Assembly: GCF_025685415.1 (NCBI RefSeq)
Contig: NZ_JAGSYB010000001.1
Span: 1,240,001 to 1,304,000 of the forward strand
Reading direction: 5' to 3'
Origin: Terriglobus aquaticus
GTDB lineage: Bacteria; Acidobacteriota; Terriglobia; Terriglobales; Acidobacteriaceae
DNA: 64,000 nucleotides
Under the pieces are notes generated by a model. It was not told the origin of the DNA and did not search any database. It worked only from the letters and a program-made list of their open reading frames with translations. Shown here piece by piece: positions 15,493 to 55,455 of this stretch. A program made the translations under genes and the position numbers. The number at the start of each line of letters is the position of its first letter. Positions within the stretch are counted from its first letter, which is position 1.

Positions 15493-15495
15493 GGC

Positions 15496-17357: not shown

Positions 17358-17383
17358 TTGATGGATGCAGAGGTGCGGCACCA

Positions 17384-18078: not shown

Positions 18079-18109
18079 CTCATAGTCGGCACCTATCTCT
18101 TCTTTAAAC

Positions 18110-18136
18110 CTGCCGAGCTCTAACGGAGCTCGGCAG
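18110..18136 (+). promoter_or_regulatory. Intra-operon hairpin, 11-bp perfect stem
   Basis: CTGCCGAGCTC (18110-18120), loop TAACG, GAGCTCGGCAG (18126-18136). No T tract follows, so it is not a classical terminator. It lies between the secreted-protein gene and the Lys-rich protein gene and could attenuate, or stabilise the 5' end of, the downstream message. Confidence 0.6.
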
Positions 18137-18160
18137 CCTAATAGCGCAAAGGAAACATCG

Positions 18161-18700: not shown

Positions 18701-18702
18701 CA

Positions 18703-35230: not shown

Positions 35231-35259
35231 TTGACATTTCCCCAAATCGACAATATGGT
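35231..35259 (+). promoter_or_regulatory. Promoter of TonB receptor 2
   Basis: TTGACA (35231-35236), 17-base spacer, TATGGT (35254-35259). Good sigma-70 form. Predicted start near 35266, about 70 bases before the receptor ATG. Confidence 0.7.
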
Positions 35260-35285
35260 TATCGCCGTTCCAAGTGAGAGCGATT

Positions 35286-35301
35286 AGACAACCGTTTGTC
35301 T
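35286..35301. promoter_or_regulatory. LacI-type operator AGACAACCGTTTGTCT
   Basis: 16-bp inverted repeat with half-sites AGACAA/TTGTCT and a central CG, about 20 bases after the predicted transcription start of receptor 2. A copy with one mismatch is at 43274-43289, inside the LacI gene and before the GH30 promoter, which makes that LacI protein the likely binder. Confidence 0.7.
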
Positions 35302-35334
35302 TGCTCCGCTCGGGGGACACTGCTTCGGAGGCAC

Positions 35335-38300
35335 ATGAAAAACAACTACTTGGTCGCTACGCTGGGTGTCGCCGCCATCCTGCTTTCTCCCGCGGGTGCC
35401 GTAGCGCAAAGCGCGAACGCCGGCGATATCCGCGGAACCGCAACAGACGCATCGGGAGCTCTCTTACCTGACGTTACCGTGACCGTGACCAACACCGGTA
35501 CCGGCGTAAGCAAGACCCTGACAACGAACAAGGACGGTCTGTACGACACCGGTCCGATCGTTACCGGCAATTACAGCGTCACCTTCATCAAGGACGGCTT
35601 CTCCAGCCTGAACCGCACCGGGTTGAATCTGGACGTCTCTACGATCACAGTGGATGGCAAGCTCACCGTCGGTTCGACCAGCGACACCGTCAACGTGAAC
35701 ACGGATGTGGCCCTGATCCAGACGGAAACCGGCGAACAGTCCGCAACGTTGTCATTCCAATCGATGAACCAGTTGCCCAACGTTGGCGGAAACGGTCCTA
35801 GCTGGGAGAATTTCACAACACTGATCGCCGGCGCTGCCGCTACACCATCCGCCCCACTCGGCAACTCACCTGGGCAGTCGGTTTCAGTAAATGGCAATCT
35901 GCCGTACAGCTCCATTCTCTCGGACGGCGCGGAGTCCACGCTGCCCAGCTCCGCCAATGCAGACGTCTACGTCTTCGAAACGGTCCAGGAGGTCAAGGTA
36001 AGCACGTCGGCCTTCTCCGCGCAGTACGGCGTGGGTGGCATCCTCTTCAACCAGATCAGCAAGGGCGGCACCAATCGCTTTCATGGCTCGGCGTATGAAT
36101 ACAACCAGAACGACGCATACAACGCCCGCCCGTACAGCTTCACCAGCGTCCCTAATGCCAAGAATCGCGTCCGCTTCAACAACTTTGGCGGCTCCATCGG
36201 CGGTCCAATTTTGAAGGATCGTGCCTTCTTCTACTTCAACTACGACCAGATCAACAACAACTCCGCGGTGAACGCGCTATCGTCGGTGCCCACCCTGGCG
36301 CAGCGCGCCGGCGACTTCTCTGCCCAGTTGATCCCGGGCATCACGTGCGCCCCCACCACGGCAGGCGGAAACAGCAGTCCGGGTTGCATATATGACCCGA
36401 ACAGCACAACCGTCGTGAACGGCGCGATCACGCGGACACCGTTTTTGAACAACCAGATCCCGACCGGTCGCTTCGACAAGGTAGCCGCAGCCATCCAGGC
36501 GTTCTTCCCTGCCCCCAACCGTCCAGGCACGGTGCAGACTGCATCGTTCGCGAATGGAAAGTACACGCCCGGCTTCACCAGCAACAACTACTACTACCAA
36601 GGCACCCAGTCGAACCCTTACAAAAAGTACTTCGGCCGCCTCGACTTCAACCTGAGCGATAAGAATCGCCTTACCGCAACCGTAGCGAAGCGCGACAATC
36701 CTGCCTTCTTCATTGGCCAAGACATCTGCCCCATCAACTGCTACGCTGGCGACGTCGACAGCACCAATGCGCAGATCACCGATGTTCATAGCTTCAGCAG
36801 CAACTTCATTAACGAACTGCGTCTGGGCTACACCAACCAACTGAACTTCTTCGTTGGCCAGAGCTTCGGTGGTGGCTACCCCAGCAAGCTTGGCTTCCAA
36901 TTTGCCAAGGCTGACGGTTTCCCGCAGATCAACTACAACAGCGGTTTGCTTGGACTTGGGCCCGGCATTAACGCCATCTACAAGGAGCACGTCTTCGATC
37001 CCTCCGACGTGGTCACGTTGATCCGGGGTCGCCACATACTGCACTTCGGCGGCGAGTTCCTGATCAACGAAGACAACTCAACGGCCTGGGGCAATCTGAA
37101 CCCCGGAACCTTCGGCTTCACGGGCGACTACACCAAAGGCTCGCTCAACGACAAGAATTCCGGTCTGGACTATGCCGACTTCCTTCTGGGTACGGCGCAT
37201 GACTGGAGCGCTCAGGTGCAACCGGAGTACGCCGGTCGGCAGAAGACGCCTCAGGTCTTTGTGCAGGACGATTGGAAGGTCCGGCCGAACCTGACACTGA
37301 ACCTCGGCCTGCGCTACCAGGTGCAGCTCGGCTGGAAGGATGCGAAGAACGACCAGGCGACGTTCGATCCATCCATCACCAATCCCGCAACCAACACGCC
37401 CGGTGCCATCTGGTTCGCCGCAAACAAGACCAACGGACGCACCGCTCTGCAGCAGAACAAGTACGACATCGTTCTGCCTCGCGTGGGCTTTGCCTACACC
37501 GTGCGTCCTGACCTGGTCATGCGCGGTGGCGTTGGCCTGTACTCCTATAACTGGAGCCTGGATCAGTACGGCCAGGGTCAGGGCCAAGCAATCCTATCAA
37601 GCGGCAACGCCTCCGACAGCACGAATGGCACGGCATACGTGACAACGCTCGCTGGCAATGGATCGAATCTTCCCTTTGCCCTGCAAAGCACGGACCCGGC
37701 AAGCAAGAATGGGCAGAGCTTCAACTACGTCCCATACAACACGCCGGTCGCACGGTCGTTGCAGTACAACTTCGGCTTTGAAAAGCAGTTCGGCGCCGAC
37801 ATGGCCGTTCAGATCGCGTACGTCGGCAACAAGAGCTATAACCTTGTCTTTCCGTCCGGAATCAACCAGCTCACACAGGCCGGGTTGCAGCAGGCGAAGG
37901 CAAACCCAAGCCGGGCGCAGTCGTTTCGGCCGTTCCCGCAGTATCAATCTCTGAGTGGGTACCAGACCGGCGCTAATTCCAACTACAACTCGCTTCAGGT
38001 CTCCATTACGAAGCGCTTCTCGCACGGCTTCAGCTTTGACACGAACTATGTCTGGTCCAAGTTCCTGGACGATATCGACTCTTCGGGCTGGGGTAGCCGT
38101 GCGGGTACGCTGCAGTACCAGGACCCATACAACTTCCACGCCAACTACGGGCCGTCTAACTTCGACATCCGCAATGCGTGGAAAGGCAGTGTGATCTACC
38201 AGCTTCCCTTTGGCCTGAACCAGCAGTTCCTGAACCACAATCGGTTCGCGGACGCGGTGATCGGTGGATGGCGCGTGTCGAGCACCTTCCAACTGCAGGA

Positions 38301-38715
38301 CGGGAACCCATTTACACCGACCATCAACTCGCAACAGACCAGCGACTTCGCACTGTCGGGCGGCTCCAACTTCCGTCTGCGTCCGAACCTGGTCGGCAAT
38401 CCCAATCCTGCCCACCGTACCCTGCTTCAGTACTTTGACACCAACGCTTACGAGCAACCCGCTCCCTACACCTACGGTAACGTGCACCGTAATAGCCTCT
38501 ACGGTCCTGGCTATGAGAGCTTCAATGCTTCCATCGGCAAAACCTTCCACTACACCGAAACCATCGGCCTCTCCATACGTGCCGACGTCAACAACATCCT
38601 GAACCATCCCACCTTCGGTGTGCCCAACACGGACCTAACCAACGGCGGTGGCCAGATCACTTCCACCAGCAACGCCGCACGCAACATGCAGTTGAGCGCG
38701 CGCTTCGCATTCTAG
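35335..38715 (+). CDS. Oar-like TonB-dependent outer-membrane receptor 2
   Basis: 1126 residues. ATG 35335 has GGAGG three bases upstream and begins a signal peptide (LVATLGVAAILLSPAGAVAQ). Carboxypeptidase-regulatory domain at about 25-110 (GDIRGTATDASGALLPDVTVTV), plug-like region (QYGVGGILFNQISKGGTNRFHGSAYEY), then a long barrel ending in ARFAF, the terminal Phe being the BAM signal. Likely importer of a glycan fragment. It is under a TTGACA promoter with a LacI operator and is followed, after a terminator-like hairpin, by TPR and CRTAC1 genes. Confidence 0.93.
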   Translation: MKNNYLVATLGVAAILLSPAGAVAQSANAGDIRGTATDASGALLPDVTVTVTNTGTGVSKTLTTNKDGLYDTGPIVTGNYSVTFIKDGFSSLNRTGLNLDVSTITVDGKLTVGSTSDTVNVNTDVALIQTETGEQSATLSFQSMNQLPNVGGNGPSWENFTTLIAGAAATPSAPLGNSPGQSVSVNGNLPYSSILSDGAESTLPSSANADVYVFETVQEVKVSTSAFSAQYGVGGILFNQISKGGTNRFHGSAYEYNQNDAYNARPYSFTSVPNAKNRVRFNNFGGSIGGPILKDRAFFYFNYDQINNNSAVNALSSVPTLAQRAGDFSAQLIPGITCAPTTAGGNSSPGCIYDPNSTTVVNGAITRTPFLNNQIPTGRFDKVAAAIQAFFPAPNRPGTVQTASFANGKYTPGFTSNNYYYQGTQSNPYKKYFGRLDFNLSDKNRLTATVAKRDNPAFFIGQDICPINCYAGDVDSTNAQITDVHSFSSNFINELRLGYTNQLNFFVGQSFGGGYPSKLGFQFAKADGFPQINYNSGLLGLGPGINAIYKEHVFDPSDVVTLIRGRHILHFGGEFLINEDNSTAWGNLNPGTFGFTGDYTKGSLNDKNSGLDYADFLLGTAHDWSAQVQPEYAGRQKTPQVFVQDDWKVRPNLTLNLGLRYQVQLGWKDAKNDQATFDPSITNPATNTPGAIWFAANKTNGRTALQQNKYDIVLPRVGFAYTVRPDLVMRGGVGLYSYNWSLDQYGQGQGQAILSSGNASDSTNGTAYVTTLAGNGSNLPFALQSTDPASKNGQSFNYVPYNTPVARSLQYNFGFEKQFGADMAVQIAYVGNKSYNLVFPSGINQLTQAGLQQAKANPSRAQSFRPFPQYQSLSGYQTGANSNYNSLQVSITKRFSHGFSFDTNYVWSKFLDDIDSSGWGSRAGTLQYQDPYNFHANYGPSNFDIRNAWKGSVIYQLPFGLNQQFLNHNRFADAVIGGWRVSSTFQLQDGNPFTPTINSQQTSDFALSGGSNFRLRPNLVGNPNPAHRTLLQYFDTNAYEQPAPYTYGNVHRNSLYGPGYESFNASIGKTFHYTETIGLSIRADVNNILNHPTFGVPNTDLTNGGGQITSTSNAARNMQLSARFAF

Positions 38716-38732
38716 TGATCGCTGCTAAATGG

Positions 38733-38768
38733 GCGGAGGCGGGCCGACTTGGCCGCCTCCGCTTTCTT
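38733..38768 (+). terminator. Terminator-like hairpin between TonB receptor 2 and TPR gene
   Basis: GCGGAGGCGG (38733-38742) pairs with CCGCCTCCGC (38753-38762), followed by TTTCTT. Sits 18 bases after the receptor stop. Same arrangement as the hairpin at 10671-10700. Confidence 0.75.
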
Positions 38769-38798
38769 GTTCCGTCTAAACTGTTGCGAGAGGACTTG

Positions 38799-40022
38799 AT
38801 GTACCGTATGCGTCCATCGCGAGTTGCGTCTCAGCGCCTCGTGCTTGCTGCTGCATTGTGGACCTGCAGTGCGCACGGACAAGCGGCAGCAGGCATCGCC
38901 ACCTCATCGGCCCAGCAGCACCTGCAACAGGCTCACGCATTCCTCGCACAGAAGCAACCTGCAAAGGCCATCCCGGAGTTCCAGGCTGTCCTGCAAGTAG
39001 ATCCGAACAACGCCGACGCTGTCGGCAACCTTGGCGTGCTCCTATACTTTGTCGGTGACTACGCCCATGCCGAACCGTTGCTCGAGCGCACGGTCGCAAC
39101 GCAGCCCGTGCCAAAGCTGAAAGGGCTGCTCGGTCTGGCGCAGCGCCGCAGCGGTCAGCCCGAAGCCGCGCGCGCAACGCTCACGCAGGCCTTCCCCGCC
39201 CTGCTCCAAGGCCAGGATGCCTTTGTGCGCGAAGTCGGTCTGGAGCTTGTCGAACTCGACTCTGCCGCTGGAGACCTGCCAGCAGCAGCAGCCGTGATCG
39301 CGCAGTTGAAGGCCAGGCTGCCCGCGGATGCCGGTGTGCTCTACGCCGCTTATCGCGTCAATACCGACCTGGCAAACGAGGCCATGCTGCAGCTCTCGCT
39401 GGTCGCGCCAAGCTCGGCAGAGATGCATCGTGCCATGGCACATGAACTCTCACGCGAACGCGACCTCAAAGGCGCCATCACCAACTATCGTGCTGCCATG
39501 GCTGCCGACCCGAAGATGACCGGCCTGCACTTCGAACTGGCAGAGGTCTTACGCCAGTCGCCCGAACCGGAGCTGAAGGCCGAAGCCGAACAGCAGTATC
39601 AGCTTGCCGTAAAAGCCGACCCTTCCAACGCACAGGCACTAACGCGGTTGGGAGACTATGCTGCGGACCGGAGCGAGCACGATAGCGCAATTACGTACTA
39701 TCGCTCTGCCCTGAAACTCGCACCGCAGGACTCCAACGCAAACGTCGGTTTAGCGCATGAGCTGGTCGAGACAAACCATCCCGACGAGGCTCTCGCCCTG
39801 CTGCTGAACGCCGAAAAGGCAGACCCCACTGACACCCTGGTGCACTTCCGCCTCGCTGCTCTGTACCGCCGCCTCAAGCGTCCGGACGACGCGCATCGCG
39901 AGGTCGCCGACTACGAACGCTACAAGGCCATGAAGGATAAGCTGCACGCGGTCTATAAAGAGATGCGGGTAAACGCGCCGGGCCGCGGATCGGAAGACCA
40001 GACGCAGGGAGCCAAGCCGTAG
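38799..40022 (+). CDS. Exported TPR-repeat protein downstream of TonB receptor 2
   Basis: 407 residues; ATG 38799 has GAGAGGA about five bases before it, and an ATG at 38808 is close behind. The frame opens upstream at 38715 but that part includes the terminator hairpin. Export signal RLVLAAALWTCSAHGQ. Eight to ten TPR units (PAKAIPEFQAVLQVDPNNADAVGNLGVLL; DDAHREVADYERYKAMKDKL at the end). No catalytic motif. Two bases separate it from the CRTAC1 gene, so the two are one unit. Confidence 0.87.
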   Translation: MYRMRPSRVASQRLVLAAALWTCSAHGQAAAGIATSSAQQHLQQAHAFLAQKQPAKAIPEFQAVLQVDPNNADAVGNLGVLLYFVGDYAHAEPLLERTVATQPVPKLKGLLGLAQRRSGQPEAARATLTQAFPALLQGQDAFVREVGLELVELDSAAGDLPAAAAVIAQLKARLPADAGVLYAAYRVNTDLANEAMLQLSLVAPSSAEMHRAMAHELSRERDLKGAITNYRAAMAADPKMTGLHFELAEVLRQSPEPELKAEAEQQYQLAVKADPSNAQALTRLGDYAADRSEHDSAITYYRSALKLAPQDSNANVGLAHELVETNHPDEALALLLNAEKADPTDTLVHFRLAALYRRLKRPDDAHREVADYERYKAMKDKLHAVYKEMRVNAPGRGSEDQTQGAKP

Positions 40023-40024
40023 CC

Positions 40025-41728
40025 ATGCGCTTCGCCTCCAGGCTTCAAGCCGCGCTCTGCCTGGCGGCCATGCTGCTGCTCACTGCGCAAGCGCAGTCGC
40101 CCACCGCACCAGTACTCGTGGACGTCACAGCCTCTACCGGCATCCACTTTTCCCATCTGTCCAGCCCAGAGCAGGCCTACATCGTCGAGTCCATGAGTGG
40201 CGGTGTTGCCGTACTGGACTACGACGGCGACGGCTGGCTCGATATCTACTTCACCAACGCGCCAAGCGTTGCGATGGCACTGAAAGGCGAGCGAGCCAGG
40301 AGCGTTCTCTACCGCAACAATCATGACGGCACCTTTACCGACGTGACCGACAAAGCCGGTGTAGGCTACCCGTGCTGGGCCATGGGTGCCGCCGTGGCAG
40401 ACTACGACAACGACGGCAAACCGGACCTGGTCGTCAGTTGCTTTGGCGGGATAGTGCTCTACCACAATCGCGGTGACGGAACCTTTGAGAACGTGACCGC
40501 GAAGAGCGGCCTTGGCAAAGACCAGGGGTGGGCCACCGGTGTTTCGTTTGGCGATTACAACGGCGATGGCTGGCCCGACCTGTTCGTTCCGCACTACGTC
40601 GATCTCGATCTGCACGACCTCCCAAAGTTCGGCTCCGAGCGTACCTGCCAGTACCATGGCGTCGCCGTGCAATGTGGTCCGCGCGGGCTAAAGGGCTCGC
40701 CCGACACGCTCTATCGCAACAACCGCGACGGCACCTTTACCGAAGTCGCCGAGCAGGCTGGCGTAAGCGATCCTAAACACTTCTTCGGCCTAGGGTCTCT
40801 GTGGACCGACTTCGACACTGATGGCAAGCTCGACCTGTTCGTGGCCAACGATGGTCAACCGAATTACCTGTACCACAATCAGGGCGATGGCCACTTCAAA
40901 GAAGTCGCGCTGGATGCAGGCGTGGCGCTGAGTGAGAACGGAGTCGAACAGGCGAACATGGGCATTGCCGCGGCAGACACTCGCGGCAACGGCCGCGTCG
41001 ATGTCGCGGTCAGTCACTTCAGCGACGAATACATGACGCTCTACCGCAACGAGGGTTCGCTCAACTTCACCGAGGCAGCTCATTCCACCGGAATCGCTCA
41101 TGCCACAGAGAAGTACGTCGGCTGGGGCACGGCATTCGTCGACCTGCAGAATCGTGGCATTCTCGATCTGTTGCTAGTGAACGGGCACGTGTATCCGCAG
41201 GTAGAGCAGATCGCTCAGGGCATTCACTACAAAGAGCCGGGCATCATCTTCCAAGGCATGCCGGATGGAACCTTTCGCGATGCGACTGCGACACTGGGAC
41301 CTACCTTCGGCGCTCCGCAGGTAAGCCGCGGCCTGGCCGTTGGCGACCTGTTTCATCGCGGAGGTGTCGAGGTTGTCGTGGAGAACCTGGAAGGTGGGCC
41401 GCACATTTTCAGCACCCGGCCGAACCCGGCCAACCACTGGCTCAGCCTCCAGCTCGAAGGCGACACAACCAACGTGAGCGCGCTCAATGTGCGTGTGCGC
41501 GTCACGGCCAACGGCCGCACCCAAACGCTGGAGCCGCGCTCCGGTGGCAGCTATCTCTCGCAGAGCGATCTGCGGCTGCACGTCGGCCTTGGCGCTGCAA
41601 CCACCGCCGATGTCGAGGTGCTTTGGCCGGGAGCGCCGCAGGTTTTCCACGCCGTCAAAGCCGACACCTTCTACCGCCTCCATCAGGGCAGGCAGTTGGT
41701 CGTGCAGCAGTTCGCTCCAGCCAAGTAG
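40025..41728 (+). CDS. CRTAC1-type FG-GAP/ASPIC-UnbV repeat protein
   Basis: 567 residues with signal peptide (ALCLAAMLLLTAQAQ). Repeated calcium-binding FG-GAP/VCBS loops such as LDYDGDGWLDIYF, ADYDNDGKPDLVV, GDYNGDGWPDLFV and TDFDTDGKLDLFV form an integrin-alpha-like beta propeller (about 30-440). The ASPIC/UnbV domain closes the protein (RVRVTANGRTQTLEPRSGGSYLSQSDLRLHVGLG). Role in bacteria is not established; calcium-stabilised surface binding is likely. Directly follows the TPR gene. Its stop is only three bases from the stop of the convergent GH30 gene. Confidence 0.92.
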   Translation: MRFASRLQAALCLAAMLLLTAQAQSPTAPVLVDVTASTGIHFSHLSSPEQAYIVESMSGGVAVLDYDGDGWLDIYFTNAPSVAMALKGERARSVLYRNNHDGTFTDVTDKAGVGYPCWAMGAAVADYDNDGKPDLVVSCFGGIVLYHNRGDGTFENVTAKSGLGKDQGWATGVSFGDYNGDGWPDLFVPHYVDLDLHDLPKFGSERTCQYHGVAVQCGPRGLKGSPDTLYRNNRDGTFTEVAEQAGVSDPKHFFGLGSLWTDFDTDGKLDLFVANDGQPNYLYHNQGDGHFKEVALDAGVALSENGVEQANMGIAAADTRGNGRVDVAVSHFSDEYMTLYRNEGSLNFTEAAHSTGIAHATEKYVGWGTAFVDLQNRGILDLLLVNGHVYPQVEQIAQGIHYKEPGIIFQGMPDGTFRDATATLGPTFGAPQVSRGLAVGDLFHRGGVEVVVENLEGGPHIFSTRPNPANHWLSLQLEGDTTNVSALNVRVRVTANGRTQTLEPRSGGSYLSQSDLRLHVGLGAATTADVEVLWPGAPQVFHAVKADTFYRLHQGRQLVVQQFAPAK

Positions 41729-41731
41729 TTG

Positions 41732-43156
41732 CTACCAGACGTAGGTCGCCACGGCACCGGCTGGCAGCGTCGTCTGCGCCTGCTTGCCACAATTGCGAAT
41801 GGCGAAGTGCGCCTCATCCGCCGTGGTGTTACTCACAATCAGAACTCGATTACCACTCGGCGTTACAAACGCGACGTGCGGCAGCGTGCCGGGTGAAGCG
41901 GAACTCACTCGCACAGACCCCGGCGGAACAAATTCCGACGCATGCGCCGCCGTGTAATAGGCCTCGTGCCGCGTCACGGTATCGCCGTCCAGCGTCATCG
42001 CACCCACACAGATCGGACAGCCACCGTCACTCGTATGCGGACCGTTCTGTGGGTCAGCTGCCAGGTTCCACAACAGCACATTGCGGCTCCAGTTCTCAGG
42101 CGCGCCGATAATCAGCCGAGCTACCGGCTCCGCAATGGCAAGCTCAGGGTGACCCCGCTTCGGGATGACCATCTGCTCCGTAAAGTACAGGTTCTTGTTG
42201 GGGAACGCGTCATGCACCTGCGACATCGCATCGACCGTGCCCAGGTACAGGTGGAATCCCGTCCCATCGGTATACCGGTACGCCTCAGGATCCTTCAAGA
42301 GATCGATACCGTACTCCGGATGATCGCAGTTGTGATCGAAATCGATGATCTTGGTCCTGAGGCCGGAGCGTGCGATGGCAGGCCCAAGATGTTTCCCGAT
42401 GAACTCGGCCTCCTCGGCTGAGGTCACAATCATGCTCGGCGTGTTCTTCGGATTCTCCGGTTCATTCTGGGGCGTGATCGCGTTAATGGTAATGCCATGC
42501 CGCTGCATCGCCTGCACGTAGTCCACCAGGTAATGCGCATAGACCTCGTAGAACTGCGGCTGCAAACTGCCGCCCTTCACCGCACCGTTGTCTTTCATCC
42601 ATGCGGGTGCCGTCCACGGCGAAGCGACGATGTGGAGATGCGGCTGGATGACGAGGATCTCCCGCAGAACCGGAATCACATCCTTCTCATCCTCCGCCAC
42701 CGAGAAGTGCTGCAGCTCCGCGTCGGTCTGACCTGCAGGCATATCATCGTACGTGTAGACATGGTCATTCATGTCAGACGCGCCGATGGACACCCGCACG
42801 TAGCTAGTGCCGATACCGCCCTTCGCGTCGAACAGTTCGTGCAACAGCGCCGAGCGCTTCGCGGCCGACATTTTCATCAGCAGCTGCGCTGATCCACCGG
42901 TCAAGGCGTGGCCAAAGCCGTCCATTGTCTGAAAGCGCTTCGTATCATCTACGACAATTGCGTCGCTCGCTATCACGTCTGCCTTCTTCCATCTGAGGAC
43001 AGGCTTGCGGGCCAGCAGATTTGCGCGATCGGGAGTCGTCAGCCAAATCCCGGCCGCCTTCTTTGACTGTGCGGGTGCGACCGCCGGAAGGTACAAGGCT
43101 GTGATGGCAAGGCTACCCGCAACCGCGGATCGAAGGGTGTGGGACCACTGCTTCAT
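41732..43156 (-). CDS. Secreted GH30 beta-glucosidase/beta-1,6-glucanase-like enzyme
   Basis: 474 residues; AGGA lies before the ATG. Signal peptide ending PAVAPAQ. Family GH30 landmarks: QTMDGFGHALTGGSA, SYVRVSIGASDM, ASPWTAPAWMKDNGAVKGG, acid/base Glu in TPQNEPE, nucleophile Glu in LYFTEQMV, then the C-terminal beta domain. Closest in layout to glucosylceramidase and endo-beta-1,6-glucanase subgroups; exact linkage cannot be read. Own promoter at 43231-43259 overlaps the LacI stop codon, with the LacI operator just upstream. Confidence 0.92.
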   Translation of the reverse strand: MKQWSHTLRSAVAGSLAITALYLPAVAPAQSKKAAGIWLTTPDRANLLARKPVLRWKKADVIASDAIVVDDTKRFQTMDGFGHALTGGSAQLLMKMSAAKRSALLHELFDAKGGIGTSYVRVSIGASDMNDHVYTYDDMPAGQTDAELQHFSVAEDEKDVIPVLREILVIQPHLHIVASPWTAPAWMKDNGAVKGGSLQPQFYEVYAHYLVDYVQAMQRHGITINAITPQNEPENPKNTPSMIVTSAEEAEFIGKHLGPAIARSGLRTKIIDFDHNCDHPEYGIDLLKDPEAYRYTDGTGFHLYLGTVDAMSQVHDAFPNKNLYFTEQMVIPKRGHPELAIAEPVARLIIGAPENWSRNVLLWNLAADPQNGPHTSDGGCPICVGAMTLDGDTVTRHEAYYTAAHASEFVPPGSVRVSSASPGTLPHVAFVTPSGNRVLIVSNTTADEAHFAIRNCGKQAQTTLPAGAVATYVW

Positions 43157-43230
43157 AGGTCATCCTGGGCAAAAGATCGCAAGCAATTTAGCGCTTGAGA
43201 CGCATATGCATGCCGGTGCCGAACCCTTCC

Positions 43231-43259
43231 ATTGAGCACCTCGAAGTACGAGCTGTCAA
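43231..43259 (-). promoter_or_regulatory. Probable GH30 promoter overlapping LacI stop codon
   Basis: On the minus strand TTGACA (43259-43254), 17-base spacer, CTCAAT (43236-43231). The -35 box contains the LacI stop codon TGA. The -10 box is weak. The operator at 43274-43289 ends 14 bases upstream of the -35 box. Confidence 0.45.
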
Positions 43260-44335
43260 CCCACATCGAGTTGAGACAACCGTTTGTTTGGCTGCTTCGC
43301 CTTGCTCGGTGCCACAGCCGTGGACTCGCGCACAATCAAGCTCGGCTCCAAGCAGACCAGCTCCGGAACACTCTCGCCGGCCAGCTTCCTCAGCAGCGCC
43401 GAAGCAGCCTCGTGTCCCAACCGCTGCAGCGGTTGGCGCACCGTGGTAAGTCGAGGGATCTGATATTCCGACGCGGGAATGTCATCGAAGCCAACCACCG
43501 AGCAATCGTTCGGCACCCGCAAGCCTGCGTCCGTCAGCGAACGGATCACACCCATCGCCGAGATGTCGTTGAAGCAAAGAACTGCCGTAAAATCGCGCGT
43601 GCGTTCCAACAGCTCCTTCATATCGGGATAACCCAGTTCCGGCGTGATGAGATCTTTCTCCAGCCGGATCGTCAGCCTTTTCCTCACCGGGATGCCAAGC
43701 TCGTCGGCCGCCCGCAGTGTCGCTTCCCAACGCGTGTCCGAATCAGAACTGAAGCTCTGCCCGCGCATGAAGACGATCCGGCGATGCCCCAGTGCATACA
43801 AATGCTTGAGCGACGCACGCGCTGCGGCGCCCTCATCCAGAATGACACTCGTCACGTTCGGCAAAGCAACGTGATTTGCAACACAAACTGTTGGAACGGC
43901 CGGCGTCTCCTCGAGGCGTGTGTCGATCGTAAGAAGGCCTTCCGCTCCGCGCGCATGCAGCAGCTTGGGGTAGGTATGAACCAGATCCCTGCGGTGTCGG
44001 TGATGCGCGGTAAAGAAGAAATAGTTCTCCCGCATCAGAACTTCCGCCATGCCGTTTAGTACCTGTGAGTGGTATCCATCCCCCATCTCCGGTAGGAGGA
44101 TACCGAGGGTTTGCGTCTTCTTGCTCCGTAGTGACCGTGCGATGTGGCTTGGCTCATAACCGAACTTTGCGGCGGCCTCCCGGACACGCTGCCGGGTCGC
44201 CTCCGGAATCGACCGATTCGGCGTGTCATTCAGCACAAACGAGACGGTCCCAGGATTCAATCCGAGATACTCACCAAGCATCTTCAGGCTGACCGTTTTG
44301 CCGGCTTTTGGAACGTCAGGACCTTGTTTGCTCAT
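43256..44335 (-). CDS. LacI-family transcriptional regulator
   Basis: 359 residues from ATG 44335; a GTG at 44362 is in frame. HTH is offset by an 18-residue polar head: VSLKMLGEYLGLNPGTVSFVLN, then the hinge helix region (YEPSHIARSLRSKKT). Sensor domain with GILLPEMGDGYHSQVLNGMAE, ALGHRRIVFMRG, AVLCFNDISAMGV and VVGFDDIPASEYQIPRLTTVRQP. Expected to bind an inverted repeat; two near-identical copies sit before TonB receptor 2 and inside the 3' end of this very gene, upstream of GH30. The head before the HTH is longer than usual. Confidence 0.93.
   Translation of the reverse strand: MSKQGPDVPKAGKTVSLKMLGEYLGLNPGTVSFVLNDTPNRSIPEATRQRVREAAAKFGYEPSHIARSLRSKKTQTLGILLPEMGDGYHSQVLNGMAEVLMRENYFFFTAHHRHRRDLVHTYPKLLHARGAEGLLTIDTRLEETPAVPTVCVANHVALPNVTSVILDEGAAARASLKHLYALGHRRIVFMRGQSFSSDSDTRWEATLRAADELGIPVRKRLTIRLEKDLITPELGYPDMKELLERTRDFTAVLCFNDISAMGVIRSLTDAGLRVPNDCSVVGFDDIPASEYQIPRLTTVRQPLQRLGHEAASALLRKLAGESVPELVCLEPSLIVRESTAVAPSKAKQPNKRLSQLDVG
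43274..43289. promoter_or_regulatory. LacI operator copy inside the LacI coding region
   Basis: AGACAACCGTTTGTTT matches the receptor 2 operator at 15 of 16 bases. It lies in the last codons of the LacI gene (the QPNKRLSQ segment) and directly upstream of the GH30 -35 box. Confidence 0.6.
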
Positions 44336-44612: not shown

Positions 44613-46484
44613 TCACTGAGCGTTGTGCGGCAAACAGACGGCATACATGTACCAGGCCGCGTGCGGAAGCCACTCCTCGGTCCAGCGCCAGTCTTCGTCT
44701 TTGCCGGTAACGGCGAATCCCTGATTGAACGCGATGCCGTCTCGATCATCGTCTGCCGCGGTCACTCCGTTCACGACCGCGCCAGGTGCGCCGGTGTACT
44801 TCCACGAGCGAAAGAACATATAGCGCGCATCGCCGTGTCCGCTGCCGAGCAGCATGCTTGTGTCATAAGGATTGCGCCCCAGTATCCAGTGGAGCTGATC
44901 GTTAGCATAGCCCTGCAACTGCTTCTGGAAGCTCGGGTCGTCTGGAAATAATGGAGCAGCTGCGCGTGCGGCTGCGGCAAGAGAGGCGATGCGGGCATTC
45001 TCACCCTGCCACCACGGAGCAGCCTCAGAGTCGTGGGGGAAGAAATATGCAGCTCGGATCGTGCCGTCCCCCATGCGGATGACCTGGCGGGCATAGCCAA
45101 ACGGATTGTTCACGGCGTGGGTCAACTCCATCTCTGCGGCAAGCGAGCGATGGATGACCGCTTTGATCTCGGTCTGCTCAGCCGCAGGAGCGATCTTTGA
45201 ATACGCCAACAAGGCAACCACAGGCATGCCTGCATCGGAAGGGTGGAAGAAGGGGCGGGTGCCCGCATCGGCCCGCCAATACTTCAGCGAGCCGTAAGTT
45301 CCGAAGCGCTGCATCAGACTAGCTGCGCGCGTCTGCGCCGCCTGCAGGTACATTGGACGGTTGCTTGCCCGGTACAGCTCTGTTGCCGCGAGCAGGGCGC
45401 AGTAGTCGTCCAGAATGTTCTCCCTGCCGTCGTTCAAGAGCGTGCGGTTATTCTGAGCAAGGAATGCGAATGCTTCCTCAGCCTTTTGCAGGTACACCTT
45501 TCGAGTGAAGTCACCGTCCTGGGGCATGGTGCTGGCGAGCGCGAGAGCTGCAATAGCAACACCGCCACCCGCGCGGAAGCTCGCCTGGTAGGCGTATGGA
45601 CCCGTTGCGGCCTGCACTTGCTCCGTGGAGTCGGAAGCGTCTTTCTTGAGCTGCGTGCGCCAGTTTGGATTGCCCACTTCCCGATCGGCCGCCAGCTTGT
45701 CTTTGCCCGGCGCGCTCAGGCTTTCGAGAAATGAGCCGCTAGGCTGCTTCATACGCACGAGAAAGTCTGCTCCGAACAGACCTTCATCCAGCATCCTGCG
45801 GCGTTCTTCTGAGAAGTTATCGTTCTGCCGCGCGGTGAGTTCCTTGTATCCCGCAAGCGACGCCCAGGCCACCAACGGGACCTGCTGCGGGTTGAAGTAC
45901 GACGTCAAGTTCTGGTGCGACAGGTGGATTCCGTAGTCCCCGGTCGCGTCGTACCAGCCGCCGTGCAGGTCCTCTACTCGTTCCGTGCCGGGGATGCGCA
46001 GATGCCGATCTGCGCGATCCAGGTCACCGCTGCTGCGCTGCCCTTTGAAGTAGAAGATGACGTTGGAAAGCGTGTCGCGCTCCAGCAGGTCTGGCGCGAC
46101 TTCGAACGGAGCGGAGGCACCGACCACCCGATCTCCCCGCATGGCCTGCAGGATGTAGCTACCCGGACGTTTCCATTCAGAGAAGTCGACAGAGGACAAC
46201 GCCTCCAGATGCCAGTGATCCACGGATCCGGCGGGCGCAGCCTTTCCGCTGAAGACCACCTCTCCCGTGTGTGAATCGACCAGGCGGAAGCTTGTGGCCT
46301 CGGCCGGACCGGGGCGGTAGTTCAGCAGGAACGCCTGCTTGGGCGTGTCTGGTTCATATCCGACCTGGTCCACCAGGACGCGGGTCTGGGCCGCAAGCGG
46401 CAACGCTCCTGCAACCAGGCAAGTGGCAATGCAGGCGTTCCACGCACGTGCCACCCTGTACCGCCTCCCCTGCAAAATCGTCAT
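44613..46484 (-). CDS. Secreted GH9 endoglucanase-type enzyme
   Basis: 623 residues; GGAGG five bases before the ATG. Signal peptide ACIATCLVAGALPLAAQ. An N-terminal Ig-like CelD_N domain (about 35-130, VLVDQVGYEPDTPKQAFLLN) is followed by the (alpha/alpha)6 GH9 barrel. GGWYDATGDYGIH carries the usual paired catalytic Asp residues, WILGRNPYDTSMLLG the family's LGxNP stretch, and WTEEWLPHAAWYMYA the likely acid Glu. Acts on beta-1,4-glucans or related beta-glycans outside the cell. Divergent from TonB receptor 3. Confidence 0.9.
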   Translation of the reverse strand: MTILQGRRYRVARAWNACIATCLVAGALPLAAQTRVLVDQVGYEPDTPKQAFLLNYRPGPAEATSFRLVDSHTGEVVFSGKAAPAGSVDHWHLEALSSVDFSEWKRPGSYILQAMRGDRVVGASAPFEVAPDLLERDTLSNVIFYFKGQRSSGDLDRADRHLRIPGTERVEDLHGGWYDATGDYGIHLSHQNLTSYFNPQQVPLVAWASLAGYKELTARQNDNFSEERRRMLDEGLFGADFLVRMKQPSGSFLESLSAPGKDKLAADREVGNPNWRTQLKKDASDSTEQVQAATGPYAYQASFRAGGGVAIAALALASTMPQDGDFTRKVYLQKAEEAFAFLAQNNRTLLNDGRENILDDYCALLAATELYRASNRPMYLQAAQTRAASLMQRFGTYGSLKYWRADAGTRPFFHPSDAGMPVVALLAYSKIAPAAEQTEIKAVIHRSLAAEMELTHAVNNPFGYARQVIRMGDGTIRAAYFFPHDSEAAPWWQGENARIASLAAAARAAAPLFPDDPSFQKQLQGYANDQLHWILGRNPYDTSMLLGSGHGDARYMFFRSWKYTGAPGAVVNGVTAADDDRDGIAFNQGFAVTGKDEDWRWTEEWLPHAAWYMYAVCLPHNAQ

Positions 46485-46529
46485 TCATTCCTCCTGCCGC
46501 GATGCGAGTGTGCCTGTGTGAAATTCCGC

Positions 46530-46558
46530 TTGCAATATTCGTCTTCCCATCCTAATCT
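46530..46558 (+). promoter_or_regulatory. Probable promoter of TonB receptor 3
   Basis: TTGCAA (46530-46535), 17-base spacer, TAATCT (46553-46558). Start of transcription expected near 46565, about 80 bases before the ATG. An imperfect palindrome (CTAA...TTAG, 46587-46601) lies about 20 bases further on, like the operators of receptors 1 and 2 but much weaker. Confidence 0.45.
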
Positions 46559-46646
46559 TCACGTCATCCGACCCTTACAATCTTTTCTAACGTTTCATTA
46601 GCAACTCGAGCGACGTATGTGCTCGCAGCATCTCAGGAGATTCTTC

Positions 46647-49600
46647 ATGGCTCGTAGGTGTTCGCTCCAGCTCGCCGCAATCCTGGTCATTCCGTCCGCA
46701 GCGCTCGCCCAAACCGTTACCGGTTCCGTTCGTGGCACCGTTCTAGATCCAACCGGAGCAGCGATCGTCGGCGCGCAGGTGACTGCGATCAACACGGCGA
46801 CCGGGGTAGCCACAGCCGCTAAAACGGAAAAGAACGGCGACTACTCGCTGCGCTTCCTGCAGATTGGCAGCTACACCATCACAGTGACCGCGCCCGGCTT
46901 TGCGGAGGCAAAATATGGGCCGTTTCAGCTGAGCATCGATCAAACGGCCAAGATCGATATTCCGCTATCGGTGAGCGGCAACTCGGCCACGGTGGAAGTG
47001 GATACCGGGACCCAGCCGATTCTGGAGACAGAAGCTCCCACGCTGGGCGAGACCTTCACGACGAACGCAATCAACAGCCTGCCATTGAACGGACGCGACT
47101 TCTCTCAACTGACGGTCTTCACTCCAGGCGCCATTTCGACCAACTACGGTGCCTTCGGTGGTCAGAACTCAATCGAACGCAGCACCGGTGCCGACAACGA
47201 GCCCAACGTGAATGGCAACCGGCAACAGTCGAACAACTATCTGCTGGACGGCCAGGAAATCAACGAAAACCTGAACAACACCATCGGGTACTCGCCCAGC
47301 CCTGACGCGCTGGATCAGGTACGCGTGATCGCCGCAAACGCCAACGCGGAGTTTGGCAATGTAAATGGCGGTGATGTGGTGATGGTCACAAAGAGCGGCA
47401 CCAACTCCTTCCACGGCAGCGTGTTCGGCTTCTTGGAAAACCAGAATCTGAATGCAAACAGCTGGACCAACAAGCGCTCTGGAACGCCGATCAATCCATA
47501 CACGCAAGCGATCTTCGGCGGAACGCTAGGCGGCCCGATCTTCCGGGACAAGGTGTTCTTCTTCATGGATTACCAGGGTGCGCGTCAGCATAGCGGTGGT
47601 CTGGGCACGACTCACGTAGCGCCGGCAGCGCTACGCACCGGCGACTTCTCCGCCCTGTTGCGTGGCAGCAGTCCCATCCAGCTGTACAACACACAGAACG
47701 CAGGTGGCCCTGTTCCCTATGCGAACAATCAACTTCCAATCACCAACCCGGTGGCGCGCTTCCTGTTCAGCCACCCAGAGGTGTATCCCCTGCCCAACAT
47801 CCCGGGCGCCAGCGACGATCCGCTGTCACAGGTAGACAACTACAGCGGGCTAAGCAAGAGCTACCAACGAAACGACCAAGGTGACATCAAGATCGACTGG
47901 CACTTCCGTCTGAAAGATGTGCTTTCTGGACGGTATACCCAGGGCATCGCACAGGACGCCACGACGGCAGTTCCCCTTGCTGTGCAGTTCCCGTCTGCAT
48001 CGGACTACCCCGATCACCTGTTCACAACCACCTGGACGCACACGTTCAGCCCGTCTGTGGTCAACGAATTACGGGCGTCATACTCGCGCATCCGTTTCAA
48101 CAGCGGCGTCACGACTGATCCGAGCGGCATCTTCGGCTTGAACGGCAACCAGGTAGTCGGCATTCCGAGTGCCGCGCAGCAGACAGCGGGGTTCAGCGCG
48201 CAGCAATTCTCGACTGGGTCCATCAGCAATTTCGGTGCAAACCCAACGCCGGAGATCTTCATCGACAACGTGTTTCAATATGCCGACAACCTGACATGGC
48301 AGCGTGGACGCCACCTATTTAAGTTTGGCGCACAGATCACCAGATACCAGCAGAACAGCTTTTACCCTGGCAACAACGGCGTGCTGGGCTATTTCCAATA
48401 CACCGGCCAGTTCACGGCGGATCCAAGCAGCAGCAGCACCAATATCCCATTTGCGGATTTCGTGACCAATAACGTGTATGAAGCCGCGGTCGGCCAGGTA
48501 GTCGGGCGCACGGGACAGCGGCAGTATCGCGACGCGTACTTTGCGCAAGACGATTTCAAAGTGAGCGACAAGCTCACGTTGAACCTCGGCGTGCGTTACG
48601 AGTACGATCAGCCCATCTACGAGGTCAACAACAAGCAGGCGAACCTGAACCTGCAGACAGCGGCGATCGAGTACGCGGGCGTGAACGGGAACAGCCGAGC
48701 ACTGTACAACCCCACATACACCAACATCATGCCGCGCATCGGCTTCGCCTATCAGGTCACCCCGAGGTTTGTGTTGCGCGGCGGCTACGGCATTACGACG
48801 TATCTGGAAGGCACCGGGGCGAACCTGAGACTGACACAGAATCCGCCGTTCCATAACGACTTCGACAGCATCGCAACCGTACCCGCGTTCAACGGTGGCG
48901 TTTATTCTCCTGGAACTCCGTTGCACGCGAGCAGCGGCTTTCCTACGACAAATCCCCCGGTCACAACCTTCTACGCCTGGAAAAAGAATCTCCAGCCGGC
49001 GTCGATCCAGGAAGCTTCTCTGACGACAGAATATGAGCTGACCCGAACCTCATCGCTCCAGGTTGGATTCGTGAGCGAGCTTGGCCACCACCTGACTGAT
49101 CCCGTGTACGCCAATCAGCTTGCCTCGCCTACCGCAACGGCACCATACGCCAGCGTGGTTGGGCAAGGCGGTGTGGTGAAGGTCACGGACTCGCAATCTG
49201 CAATGAATTACGAGGCGCTGCAGGTCGTGTTCCGTCAGCACGTCAAGGCCGGCCTGGAGCTCACCGCCAACTACAGCTACGCAAAGTCGCTGACCGATGA
49301 CATCGGATATTACGGCACCAGCAACACGCAGCAGCAGTATTATCAGCAGAACGCCTACGACCTCGCCGATGAGTGGGGCCCATCCGGCTCGGATGTCCGG
49401 CACGCATTGAGCGTCACCGGCACCTATCAGGTCCCGTTTGGGCGCGGCCAGCGCTTCGGAAACAAAACCAACTTCGCGCTGGACGAGCTATTAGGTGGCT
49501 GGAAGTTGAGCGGGACAAACGTGACATACTCTGGATTCCCGGTGACCGTCACGTCCAACGCCAACTACTCTAACCTTGTCTTCGCCTATACCGGTGCGGC

Positions 49601-50009
49601 ACGCCCTGACCAGATAAATCCGGTCACGATTCACAATCGTTCGGTCGACCACTGGTTCGGCACCGATCCCGCAATGGTCAATTCCTGCGGCTCAGACCAG
49701 CGCACCGTCCTGGTTGGATCGACCGTCGTGAACTGCGTCTACGCCTCGCAGTCCGCCAATCACTTCGGCTCGGTACGGCCGGGTACATTGCGGGCTCCAG
49801 GGTTCCTGAACTTTGACTTTGCTTTGCAGAAAAGCTTCCGGATCTACGAGTCGCACCGGCTCGACTTCCGGTCAGACTTCTTTAATGCCTTCAACATCGC
49901 AAGCTATGGCAATCCCGACAACAGCATCAACGATCCTAACTTCGGCCAGATCACGTCGACCCGTTCTACCGAGCGTCACATCCAGTTCGAACTGAAGTAC
50001 GCCTTCTAA
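46647..50009 (+). CDS. Oar-like TonB-dependent outer-membrane receptor 3
   Basis: 1120 residues from ATG 46647 with AGGAG seven bases upstream; the frame extends to 46617 but that start lacks an RBS. Signal peptide LQLAAILVIPSAALAQ. Carboxypeptidase-regulatory domain (GSVRGTVLDPTGAAIVGAQVTAI), plug-like region with LPLNGRDFSQLTVFTPG and FGNVNGGDVVMVTKSGTNSFHG, and a barrel ending KYAF. The LPLNGRDF motif is common in Acidobacteriota receptors. Divergent from GH9, hence probably takes up the products of that enzyme. No TPR gene follows; a full terminator does. Confidence 0.94.
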   Translation: MARRCSLQLAAILVIPSAALAQTVTGSVRGTVLDPTGAAIVGAQVTAINTATGVATAAKTEKNGDYSLRFLQIGSYTITVTAPGFAEAKYGPFQLSIDQTAKIDIPLSVSGNSATVEVDTGTQPILETEAPTLGETFTTNAINSLPLNGRDFSQLTVFTPGAISTNYGAFGGQNSIERSTGADNEPNVNGNRQQSNNYLLDGQEINENLNNTIGYSPSPDALDQVRVIAANANAEFGNVNGGDVVMVTKSGTNSFHGSVFGFLENQNLNANSWTNKRSGTPINPYTQAIFGGTLGGPIFRDKVFFFMDYQGARQHSGGLGTTHVAPAALRTGDFSALLRGSSPIQLYNTQNAGGPVPYANNQLPITNPVARFLFSHPEVYPLPNIPGASDDPLSQVDNYSGLSKSYQRNDQGDIKIDWHFRLKDVLSGRYTQGIAQDATTAVPLAVQFPSASDYPDHLFTTTWTHTFSPSVVNELRASYSRIRFNSGVTTDPSGIFGLNGNQVVGIPSAAQQTAGFSAQQFSTGSISNFGANPTPEIFIDNVFQYADNLTWQRGRHLFKFGAQITRYQQNSFYPGNNGVLGYFQYTGQFTADPSSSSTNIPFADFVTNNVYEAAVGQVVGRTGQRQYRDAYFAQDDFKVSDKLTLNLGVRYEYDQPIYEVNNKQANLNLQTAAIEYAGVNGNSRALYNPTYTNIMPRIGFAYQVTPRFVLRGGYGITTYLEGTGANLRLTQNPPFHNDFDSIATVPAFNGGVYSPGTPLHASSGFPTTNPPVTTFYAWKKNLQPASIQEASLTTEYELTRTSSLQVGFVSELGHHLTDPVYANQLASPTATAPYASVVGQGGVVKVTDSQSAMNYEALQVVFRQHVKAGLELTANYSYAKSLTDDIGYYGTSNTQQQYYQQNAYDLADEWGPSGSDVRHALSVTGTYQVPFGRGQRFGNKTNFALDELLGGWKLSGTNVTYSGFPVTVTSNANYSNLVFAYTGAARPDQINPVTIHNRSVDHWFGTDPAMVNSCGSDQRTVLVGSTVVNCVYASQSANHFGSVRPGTLRAPGFLNFDFALQKSFRIYESHRLDFRSDFFNAFNIASYGNPDNSINDPNFGQITSTRSTERHIQFELKYAF

Positions 50010-50081: not shown

Positions 50082-50858
50082 TTAGCGCAGCGGCTTCTTC
50101 TCGCCTACCGCTTCTACCGCTTGCTGCAGCAACCTATTCTGTACAGGGCTGTCGAAGATGCGAGCGCCGTGACCCATATTGATGTAGAGCATCCGGTACT
50201 GTGTATTGGTCCAAACCACAGGCACATCTCCCTGGGTCAGTATGTCTTTCAGTCCTAGCGGATAGTTCTCCTGAGAGAGCGAGGCCAGTACCTTGACCTT
50301 CGGATTGTCACGTGGGTTCGGCAGCCACGAGTACCATTCGTTCGCCGGAGCCTGGTAGCTCTCACCGAATCCTTGGGTGATCGTACTGGTGGTCGATTCG
50401 ATCGTAAGCCTAGCTGGCAGGGGCGGCCAGTTGTTGCCATAAAAGACAGCTCCACCCAAGAAGCTGACAAACCATGGCCACCCGGAACTGGCGTCGTTAT
50501 AGGCCGAAGCATGGAAGCCGACCCAGCCGCCGCCGTGCTCCATGTAGCGCTGAAAGGCCTGCTTTTGCGCTGGAGTGTGTGGCTCATCGTCGAGCCAGAC
50601 AACGAGCTGGTACTGATCCACGTTGCTGTCGTTCAGGTCGTTCCAGTTGGTTGTTGCGGTCCAGCTCCAACCGTCGCGCGCGGCAACACCAGCGTAGAAG
50701 CGCAGAGCATCATGCGCGAAATCGACGTGGTCGCCCTCGGTTTCTTCCGTGTAAAAGGCGAGGGCGCGAAACTTCGGCTGGGTCTGCGAACGAGCCGGCT
50801 GCGCGAAGGCAATGGCCGCGAGGGTCAGAGAAGGAAGAACCCTGCGAGGAGCTTTCAT
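50082..50858 (-). CDS. Exported ThuA-like protein (second of a pair)
   Basis: 258 residues; ATG overlaps the stop of the preceding gene (ATGA), giving coupled translation. Signal peptide LPSLTLAAIAFAQPARSQ. ThuA (trehalose-utilisation-like, class I glutamine-amidotransferase fold) features: RALAFYTEETEGDHVDFAHDALRFY, YQLVVWLDDEPH, MEHGGGWVGFHASAYN, FYGNNWPP, then VPVVWTNTQYRMLYINMGHGARIF. Biochemical role of exported ThuA proteins is unsettled; links to sugar metabolism are by genome context. Confidence 0.85.
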   Translation of the reverse strand: MKAPRRVLPSLTLAAIAFAQPARSQTQPKFRALAFYTEETEGDHVDFAHDALRFYAGVAARDGWSWTATTNWNDLNDSNVDQYQLVVWLDDEPHTPAQKQAFQRYMEHGGGWVGFHASAYNDASSGWPWFVSFLGGAVFYGNNWPPLPARLTIESTTSTITQGFGESYQAPANEWYSWLPNPRDNPKVKVLASLSQENYPLGLKDILTQGDVPVVWTNTQYRMLYINMGHGARIFDSPVQNRLLQQAVEAVGEKKPLR

Positions 50859-51676
50859 TTCTGAGCCGCCCATGTGATTGCATTGTGAAACATCTGGGTG
50901 AACGCGGTGTTCTGAAACAGCTCAGGATGATGCCCCATAAAGAAGTACACATTGCGAGCCTTCTTCTGCGGGTTGGTCCAGATCACCGGGTGATCTCCCA
51001 TTTTGATGGAGGTGTCAGGGCGATAGCTGTCTTCATCCACGCGTGCAAGCACTTGGACATTGGTTCTGGGACTCTGCGACCAGGTGTACCATTCTTCATT
51101 CTGAACAGCGAACGTGCTGGGAACGGAACGCATGACGGGGTGCTCGGGAGCTTCTACGTGTACGGTCGCGGTCGCAAACGTCCTGATGTAATCCTTGAAG
51201 AGAATGCCGCCCATGAAATCCTGAAACCAGGGCCAGACCGAAAAGCCGTCAAAGCTACCCAGCAGGCTCGCATGATGAAAACCGATCCAACCGCCCTTGC
51301 CCTCGTCGATGTAGCGCACAAAGGCGTTCTGAGCGTCTGTTGTCCAGTTATACGGCGGGTAATTCAATTGCAGGAACAAGTCGCAGTGACTCAGCAGGCG
51401 ATCGTTGATGCGATTCGTGTTTTCCAGGTATTCCACCGTGAACCCGTCGCGGCGCGCCTCGCGCGCTAGCCACACCTTTGCAGCATCGACAAACGGCTTG
51501 TGTATCCCACCCTTTTCTGCCAGTGCAACGACACGAAAGGGTCGCGCGGCCCGCTGCGCAATCGCTGTTCCGCCCAGGAGTGTCGCGAATGCCAGCAGGA
51601 AACAGAAAGAGAGAAGCCGCGTGCGTCGTGAGAGCGGAGGCGATGCGGGATCGTCAGTGATCTTCGGCCGAAGCAT
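50855..51676 (-). CDS. Exported ThuA-like protein (first of a pair)
   Basis: 273 residues from ATG 51676; the frame opens further upstream to 51868, but that part runs antisense into the YncE-like gene. Signal segment LLSFCFLLAFATLLGGTAIAQ. ThuA fold: RVVALAEKGGIHKPFVDAAKVWL, CDLFLQLNYPPYNW, IDEGKGGWIGFHHASLL, GGILFKDYI, HPVIWTNPQKKARNVYFFMGHHPELF. Divergent from the YncE-like gene with a palindrome between them. The paralogue follows by overlap. Confidence 0.85.
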   Translation of the reverse strand: MLRPKITDDPASPPLSRRTRLLSFCFLLAFATLLGGTAIAQRAARPFRVVALAEKGGIHKPFVDAAKVWLAREARRDGFTVEYLENTNRINDRLLSHCDLFLQLNYPPYNWTTDAQNAFVRYIDEGKGGWIGFHHASLLGSFDGFSVWPWFQDFMGGILFKDYIRTFATATVHVEAPEHPVMRSVPSTFAVQNEEWYTWSQSPRTNVQVLARVDEDSYRPDTSIKMGDHPVIWTNPQKKARNVYFFMGHHPELFQNTAFTQMFHNAITWAAQK

Positions 51677-51684
51677 GTTGTCAG

Positions 51685-51705
51685 AATACGGTCTTGCGGC
51701 GTATT
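51685..51705. promoter_or_regulatory. Inverted repeat AATACG-N9-CGTATT
   Basis: Perfect 6-bp arms with a 9-base spacer in the divergent region between the ThuA pair and the YncE-like gene. Possible operator; no regulator is adjacent. Confidence 0.35.
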
Positions 51706-51768
51706 TGTAACGTTGAGAAAGATACGGTTCTCTACATTCGATGTTGAATGGAAAGGCGAGAAAACCCG

Positions 51769-52860: not shown

Positions 52861-52921
52861 TGAGCCGGCACCGGTCCTGTTGGGTTATACACAGCTCCTG
52901 GGACCAGAGGTGTCCAGATCG

Positions 52922-54121: not shown

Positions 54122-54252
54122 AGGAAACGGAGCGGCCTTGCAGACTCAGTCTAAGGGAGCCGGGTACGGCCACCAAGCGCGAAAGTACAGGCGACAGACC
54201 GCGGCCCAGACGACTGCTGCAGCGCTGAGACGGACGTACGGTGAGCCGGAAA

Positions 54253-55353: not shown

Positions 55354-55455
55354 GTGCGGCTCACCTTTTCTTCTATGCCGTTCCTAATTCTTCATTATAA
55401 AGTCAAGCAGTAGCAGGAAGTGCCAGAGTGCGTGCTGGTTGCAGAATGGAGCGCT

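Follow-up and report, generated by a model that had tools for sequence, protein, structure and literature searches.

A comparative survey describes 1281 LacI regulons in 7 phyla (PMC4052901); its main text never names Acidobacteria, and it places <1% of sites in coding regions. Two further papers (PMC2978694 and PMC11897816) added nothing decisive in their accessible parts, and no operator-level LacI regulon for Acidobacteriota was found in the open-licence literature. We analysed a stretch of 64,000 nucleotides from Terriglobus aquaticus (contig NZ_JAGSYB010000001.1, positions 1,240,001 to 1,304,000; hereafter the window), in which one 16-bp palindrome precedes an outer-membrane receptor gene and a second, nearly identical one lies before a GH30 glycoside hydrolase gene, in the last codons of a LacI-family regulator gene, lacI. 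Like the local LacI sugar regulons in the accessible part of PMC4052901, this system combines a 16-bp even palindrome with central CG, a regulator adjoining its targets, and hydrolase and uptake genes. Unlike them, with their intersite peaks at 13, 22 and 32 bp, the relatives of our locus have sites spaced at about 100-110 bp.

Judged from sequence, the local LacI regulon is real and well supported. We think it very likely that both palindromes are operators of the local LacI-family regulator, the genome's only two strong ones, and that they control a receptor-TPR-CRTAC1-like operon together with GH30; both sites would be bound by the 43256-44335 protein. The reading rests on the identity of the sites, their genome-wide uniqueness, their conservation before receptor and GH30 homologues, and their linkage to LacI homologues.

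Direct comparison confirmed what an earlier, sequence-only reading of this DNA had claimed, that AGACAACCGTTTGTCT (35286-35301, operator 1) and AGACAACCGTTTGTTT (43274-43289, operator 2) agree at 15 of 16 bases over 8 kb. Such agreement is common by itself, with 131 such 16-mer pairs more than 1 kb apart within the window. Two of the 131 are near-palindromic at both places, and the 35286/43274 pair alone has a central CG in addition. Palindromic pairs within these two 16-mers number 7/8 and 6/8, respectively, and both operators have the even palindrome with central CG that PMC4052901 gives as the LacI-type shape. Another near-palindromic pair agreeing at 15 of 16 bases consists of TGCGCGTACTCGCGCA and TGCGCGTACGCGCGCA, at 12257-12272 and 25167-25182.

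The genome search for further copies that the earlier reading had proposed confined the 12-bp core ACAAHCGDTTGT to the two window sites, with none elsewhere in the 4.16-Mb genome and 0 control matches; across the same genome AGACAAMCGKTTGTYT at 0 mismatches was also found at these two sites only. Allowing <=2 mismatches in AGACAAMCGKTTGTYT added 2 places, compared with 4 forward and 2 reverse matches for the reversed-pattern control, so candidate extra regulon members were indistinguishable from chance. In a weight matrix of 69 non-redundant sites, with both window sites part of the training set, these two scored 26.6 and 26.3 (maximum 29.2) and the next best window 16-mer 9.7.

The palindrome recurs before related genes. 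We counted matches of >=14/16 within -400..+20 at the best 30 GH30 and 30 receptor loci among the matches listed, the window's own genes included; receptor locus L223 was dropped because its upstream DNA was too short, so that 29 receptor loci remained. The palindrome preceded 16/29 receptor homologues and 12/30 GH30 homologues (gene-body controls, 0/29 and 1/30; reversed pattern, 0). The motif scan covered the window and 96 fetched loci, the duplicates L109, L111 and L115 having been removed. Neighbours at the relatives' sites included 26 open reading frames unlike the window proteins, and the 15 of these that were scanned comprised 7 GH3, 3 GH5 with ricin-type lectin, 2 pectate-lyase-like, 1 alginate-lyase-like and 2 non-hydrolases (an amidase and a cytochrome). 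At one locus (L074 of genome G094, 8383-19747), two GH5 plus ricin-type lectin genes, an alginate-lyase-like gene and GH30 stand together with several sites; the LacI homologue there is in two separately matching pieces.

We then compared motif and regulator across relatives, in a sample of 150 Acidobacteriaceae genomes that included the window's own. The exact pattern was present in 16/150 genomes (the window's included) and the reversed control in 2/150. All 16 belong to the 96 genomes that have a LacI match at E<=1e-60; of the 54 genomes lacking such a match, 0 had the exact pattern. In 12 of the 15 other exact-motif genomes the site lay <10 kb from a LacI homologue (G029, G033, G034, G070, G073, G094, G098, G116, G119, G123, G130 and G142). 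In a separate named collection, sites in the fetched flanks were found for 6/11 LacI homologues of >=50% identity, 0/14 at 45-50%, 1/15 at 40-45% and 0/40 below 40%, with 0/80 for the reversed-sequence control. A one-mismatch family search matched 49/150 genomes; the reversed control was also frequent, and we concluded nothing from it.

The regulator itself has a sensor domain of periplasmic-binding-protein type (PF13377, 115.3 bits; PF00532, 73.2 bits). In the alignment of its homologues a PSTVS helix and a YQPSxIARSL hinge are visible, and solved LacI and PurR chains align across the helix-turn-helix and hinge region. Its alignment to E. coli LacI runs from residue 2 to residue 335 and stops before the tetramer helix. 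Named relatives include the proteins of Bryocella elongata (62% identity) and Acidipila sp. EB88 (57%), and the window's genome holds two further LacI homologues at E<=1e-60.

Several observations weigh against a single LacI regulon of this form. No site was found at 13/29 receptors and 18/30 GH30 genes, and the GH30 genes of the same-genus genomes G148 and G128 lack one. The helix-turn-helix family PF00356 scored 25.6 bits on the window LacI, just under the cut-off of 27, and matched at profile positions 15-46 only. The -10 box predicted for GH30 is a weak one. In 3/15 genomes (G017, G040, G051) the exact site is away from any such LacI, and one exact site falls within the gene of an efflux protein (L078) and another next to a cytochrome gene; because of these last two, some exact matches in relatives are probably chance, the L078 site among them. 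Finally, the sign of regulation is a prediction, and a same-sign response of receptor and GH30 is not to be assumed, because the operators lie on opposite sides of the predicted promoters and the known relatives vary in what they do from upstream sites. The three genomes with the motif away from this LacI would also fit sites belonging to another regulator, or a likeness that arose by chance, as would the two further LacI homologues in the genome and the frequent reversed-control matches at one mismatch. We regard that explanation as very improbable, given that the sites are unique in the genome and enriched both before the same gene classes and around LacI homologues of >=50% identity.

Relative to the predicted starts, the operator centre lies at about +27.5 (downstream) for the receptor (TTGACA-N17-TATGGT) and at about -57.5 (upstream) for GH30 (TTGACA-N17-CTCAAT). 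For the relatives we required an exact TTGACA, a spacer of 17-18 and a -10 box of >=3/6 ending in T, within -60..+110. This gave 56 operator-promoter pairs in 33 sequence clusters, reduced to 39 by taking one representative per cluster and side, by order. In none of the 39 did the operator centre fall within -8 to +52 relative to the -35, where 13.9 would be expected if positions were uniform over -60..+110. Upstream, positions relative to the -35 clustered at -21/-22 and from -32 to -35, and downstream at 53-58, 63-67, 72-79 and 85, with outlying spacings of -58 and -9 among the representatives and of -15, -37 and -54 in a further spacing listing. A 10.5-bp periodicity was present upstream (R 0.68, P = 0.0002, n = 17) and downstream (R 0.62, P = 0.0001, n = 22), and jointly at P below 1 in 20,000, clustering correcting only partly for shared ancestry in all three values.

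The two zones, with no operator on the core promoter, would fit a dual control in which one LacI acts as repressor of the receptor operon when bound downstream and as activator of GH30 when bound upstream, so that receptor and GH30 would differ in the sign of their response to free LacI. The two window centres would also suit this dual control, which we consider possible but doubtful. The weak GH30 -10 would suit an activated promoter. According to the accessible part of PMC3463425, CcpA usually activates from upstream of the -35 and represses from overlapping or downstream sites, depending on helical face; the same part also cites an upstream repressing site (lev). GalR bound at -60.5 is a repressor at one promoter and an activator at the other (PMC4693257, in the part available). 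At some GH30 genes the operator is placed downstream instead (L072, L073, L082, L112, L114), and relatives with sites on both sides of one promoter are better explained by looping.

Such paired sites across one promoter are 93-112 bp apart in 10/19 listed pairs, and flanking operators on one face are seen, for example, at L071, L080 and L232. At L106 and L107 (genomes G148 and G128), two sites 43 bp apart precede the receptor homologue, with centres at about +28.5 and +71.5, a spacing unlike the 93-112 bp pairs of other relatives. We found no promoter-flanking operator pair at either window promoter, and no weak partner operator up to 250 bp away from operator 1 or operator 2 (best scores, -5.7 and -2.5, respectively). 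That each operator is without a local partner, while relatives often have paired sites, might suggest a single DNA loop in which the regulator joins both operators 8 kb apart. We think this highly unlikely, as the relatives' pairs span one promoter at ~93-112 bp, not kilobases, and the tetramer helix is unmatched in the window LacI.

Taken together, the spacings suggest a wider reading that we put forward only tentatively: an Acidobacteriaceae LacI regulon with helically quantised operator placement, in which one LacI could drive receptor and hydrolase oppositely and operator 2 would truncate lacI transcripts in this lineage. Operators would sit ~57 or 68 bp before the start or ~18, 28, 38 or 48 bp after it, and never on the core promoter; they would move by whole turns during evolution, as between the orthologous GH30 promoters, where operator and -35 are 14 bp apart in the window and 24 bp apart in the same-genus genomes G161 and G162; and the chosen side would set the sign of regulation or the loop. 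This helical-turn placement across relatives is more interesting and testable than the overlap of operator 2 with coding sequence.

That overlap was the other main claim of the sequence-only reading, and as a description of the window it stands: operator 2 lies within the final lacI codons, beginning 34 bp before the end of the stop codon, and the stop codon (43258-43256, minus strand) is within a perfect TTGACA (43259-43254) upstream of GH30. Coding sequence doubling as regulatory sequence is therefore a local fact; as a conserved device it was rejected on account of sites past the stop codon in G162 and G155 and of an unconserved C-terminal LacI tail. The genus sample held 19 genomes, 8 of them with a LacI match at E<=1e-90. 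In G161 and G162 (LacI identity 76%) the order lacI then GH30 is kept; the palindrome is again in the last lacI codons of G161, starting 22 bp before the end of the stop codon, while in G162 lacI ends first and the palindrome follows 3 bp after the stop. In G155 the site lies 17 bp after the lacI stop, followed by a GH3 gene, and G160 has a weaker site 434 bp past the lacI stop, before a GH3 gene. In G162 and G155 the palindrome keeps its position relative to the next gene though lacI ends before it. Outside the genus, the GH30 site of two other genera abuts the stop of a CRTAC1-like gene (-1 and 0 bp; L071, L080).

In the alignment of the window, G161 and G162 from the lacI 3' end to GH30, the palindrome, GGTTGACAGC and TGCYCAATG are prominent. 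The palindrome, the -35 and TGCYCAAT are conserved, and both TTGACAGC and TGCYCAAT of the predicted GH30 promoter are kept in G161 and G162; the overlap of stop codon and -35 is missing from both. The proposed orthologue comparison, which looked for genes that keep the residues and lose the palindrome, came out reversed, with G162 lacking the residues and keeping the palindrome. Because the offset runs from inside to outside lacI in four same-genus genomes, the coding overlap is best read as incidental, a consequence of how closely lacI is packed against the GH30 promoter.

Placing receptor, GH30 and lacI in one regulon, as had been suggested, is supported for the two sites, which conservation across Acidobacteriaceae assigns to one LacI regulon, and unsupported for lacI, at whose own promoter the matrix scan found no operator. 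Sites do precede lacI in several relatives (L054, L057, L110, L131 and L146 among others). The site at the lacI 3' end could act on lacI as a roadblock only. By analogy with lac O3, it is possible that LacI bound at operator 2 halts transcription of lacI before the stop codon is reached, so that the transcript would be stopless and its product tagged and degraded; when E. coli LacI binds O3, the lacI transcript is truncated and the protein becomes SsrA-tagged (PMC3711431, in the part available), and the position of operator 2, shared with G161, and the operator-free lacI promoter would fit. The arrangement is unconserved, the site lying after the stop in G162, G155 and G160; a second operator near operator 2 was not found; dimeric E. 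coli LacI blocks only faintly at O3 according to the same part of that source; and the window LacI alignment ends short of the tetramer helix. We judge such self-control unlikely.

Returning to the regulon of two operators, repression would most likely be the main sign at both genes, and LacI would be released on meeting a sugar that the hydrolase frees from the GH30 substrate. The receptor is the simpler case: a dimer bound ~28 bp past the start would stand in the way of initiation or elongation. The GH30 dimer, ~58 bp upstream and on the same helical face as polymerase, would inhibit by contact in the style of the GalR external operator, or help activate. The C-terminal tail of lacI would happen to cross operator 2, the gene being packed tightly against the GH30 promoter.

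Features of the receptor-GH30-lacI locus (window coordinates)
Feature	Position	Strand	Remarks
Predicted receptor-operon promoter	35231..35259	+	TTGACA, 17-bp spacer, TATGGT; consensus match only
Operator 1, AGACAACCGTTTGTCT	35286..35301	none	Centre ~+27.5 from predicted start
Outer-membrane receptor	35335..38715	+	PF25183 barrel, carboxypeptidase-regulatory-like domain; ATG 35335, GGAGG just upstream
TPR protein	38715..40022	+	Second gene of putative operon
FG-GAP/ASPIC-UnbV (CRTAC1-like) protein	40025..41728	+	Third gene of putative operon
GH30 glycoside hydrolase	41732..43156	-	
Predicted GH30 promoter	43231..43259	-	TTGACA (43259-43254), 17-bp spacer, CTCAAT (weak, 3/6)
Operator 2, AAACAAACGGTTGTCT in GH30 direction	43274..43289	none	14 bp upstream of -35; within last lacI codons
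LacI-family regulator	43256..44335	-	359 amino acids; proposed binder of both operators

Pfam assignments cover the LacI-type, GH30, barrel plus carboxypeptidase-regulatory-like, TPR and FG-GAP/ASPIC-UnbV proteins. No TonB-specific family matched the receptor at the Pfam threshold used, so 'TonB receptor' is a likely label for it. For lacI, the ATG at 44335 was chosen over a mechanical GTG start at 44362. The nearest solved GH30 relative is 5ngk (259 bits), deposited as a glucosylceramidase. This enzyme is probably a Bacteroides beta-1,6-glucanase. The receptor-TPR-CRTAC1-like gene order (35335-41728) is repeated in many relatives, for example L056, L060, L071 and L080, and looks like an acidobacterial receptor unit. 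Beside lacI, a GH9 gene and another outer-membrane receptor gene are arranged divergently (44613-50009); this pair, having no site for the 43256-44335 LacI, was rejected as a regulon member. Elsewhere in the window, a 1471-amino-acid open reading frame (23219-27634) combines cellulose-synthase-like glycosyltransferase, PilZ and BcsB and is apparently a fusion of BcsA with BcsB. A possible second sugar locus (50082-56850) comprises two ThuA-like genes, a beta-propeller, a ROK regulator, a SIS-domain gene and a sugar transporter.

An acidobacterial LacI regulon can thus be proposed with a motif, a testable regulator and targets, namely the receptor-TPR-CRTAC1-like operon and GH30, joined in relatives by GH3, GH5-lectin and pectate-lyase-like genes. 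The close relatives show how compact packing can, as a by-product, leave an operator inside the end of a coding sequence, and the relatives as a whole offer a natural helical-turn spacing series, useful for asking how LacI proteins act from upstream sites.

Three known systems come close, each described here from the accessible part of its source. As in E. coli lac (PMC3711431), where O3 is in the 3' end of the regulator gene and upstream of the next operon's promoter, operator 2 is in the end of lacI and before the GH30 promoter; lac differs in having partner operators and a tetramer, while the window has one operator per promoter and an overlap that is unconserved. CcpA and its cre sites in Bacillus subtilis (PMC3463425) are alike in a LacI-family protein with upstream and downstream sites and helical spacing, the GH30 operator likewise lying upstream of the -35; CcpA is global and co-factor dependent, whereas the window regulon is local and has two sites. 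In E. coli gal, with GalR at OE -60.5 and OI +53.5 (PMC4693257), each window promoter's single site is unlike the pair; the GH30 operator ~58 bp upstream resembles OE, and the promoter-flanking pairs of the relatives, ~93-112 bp apart, resemble the 113 bp of gal.

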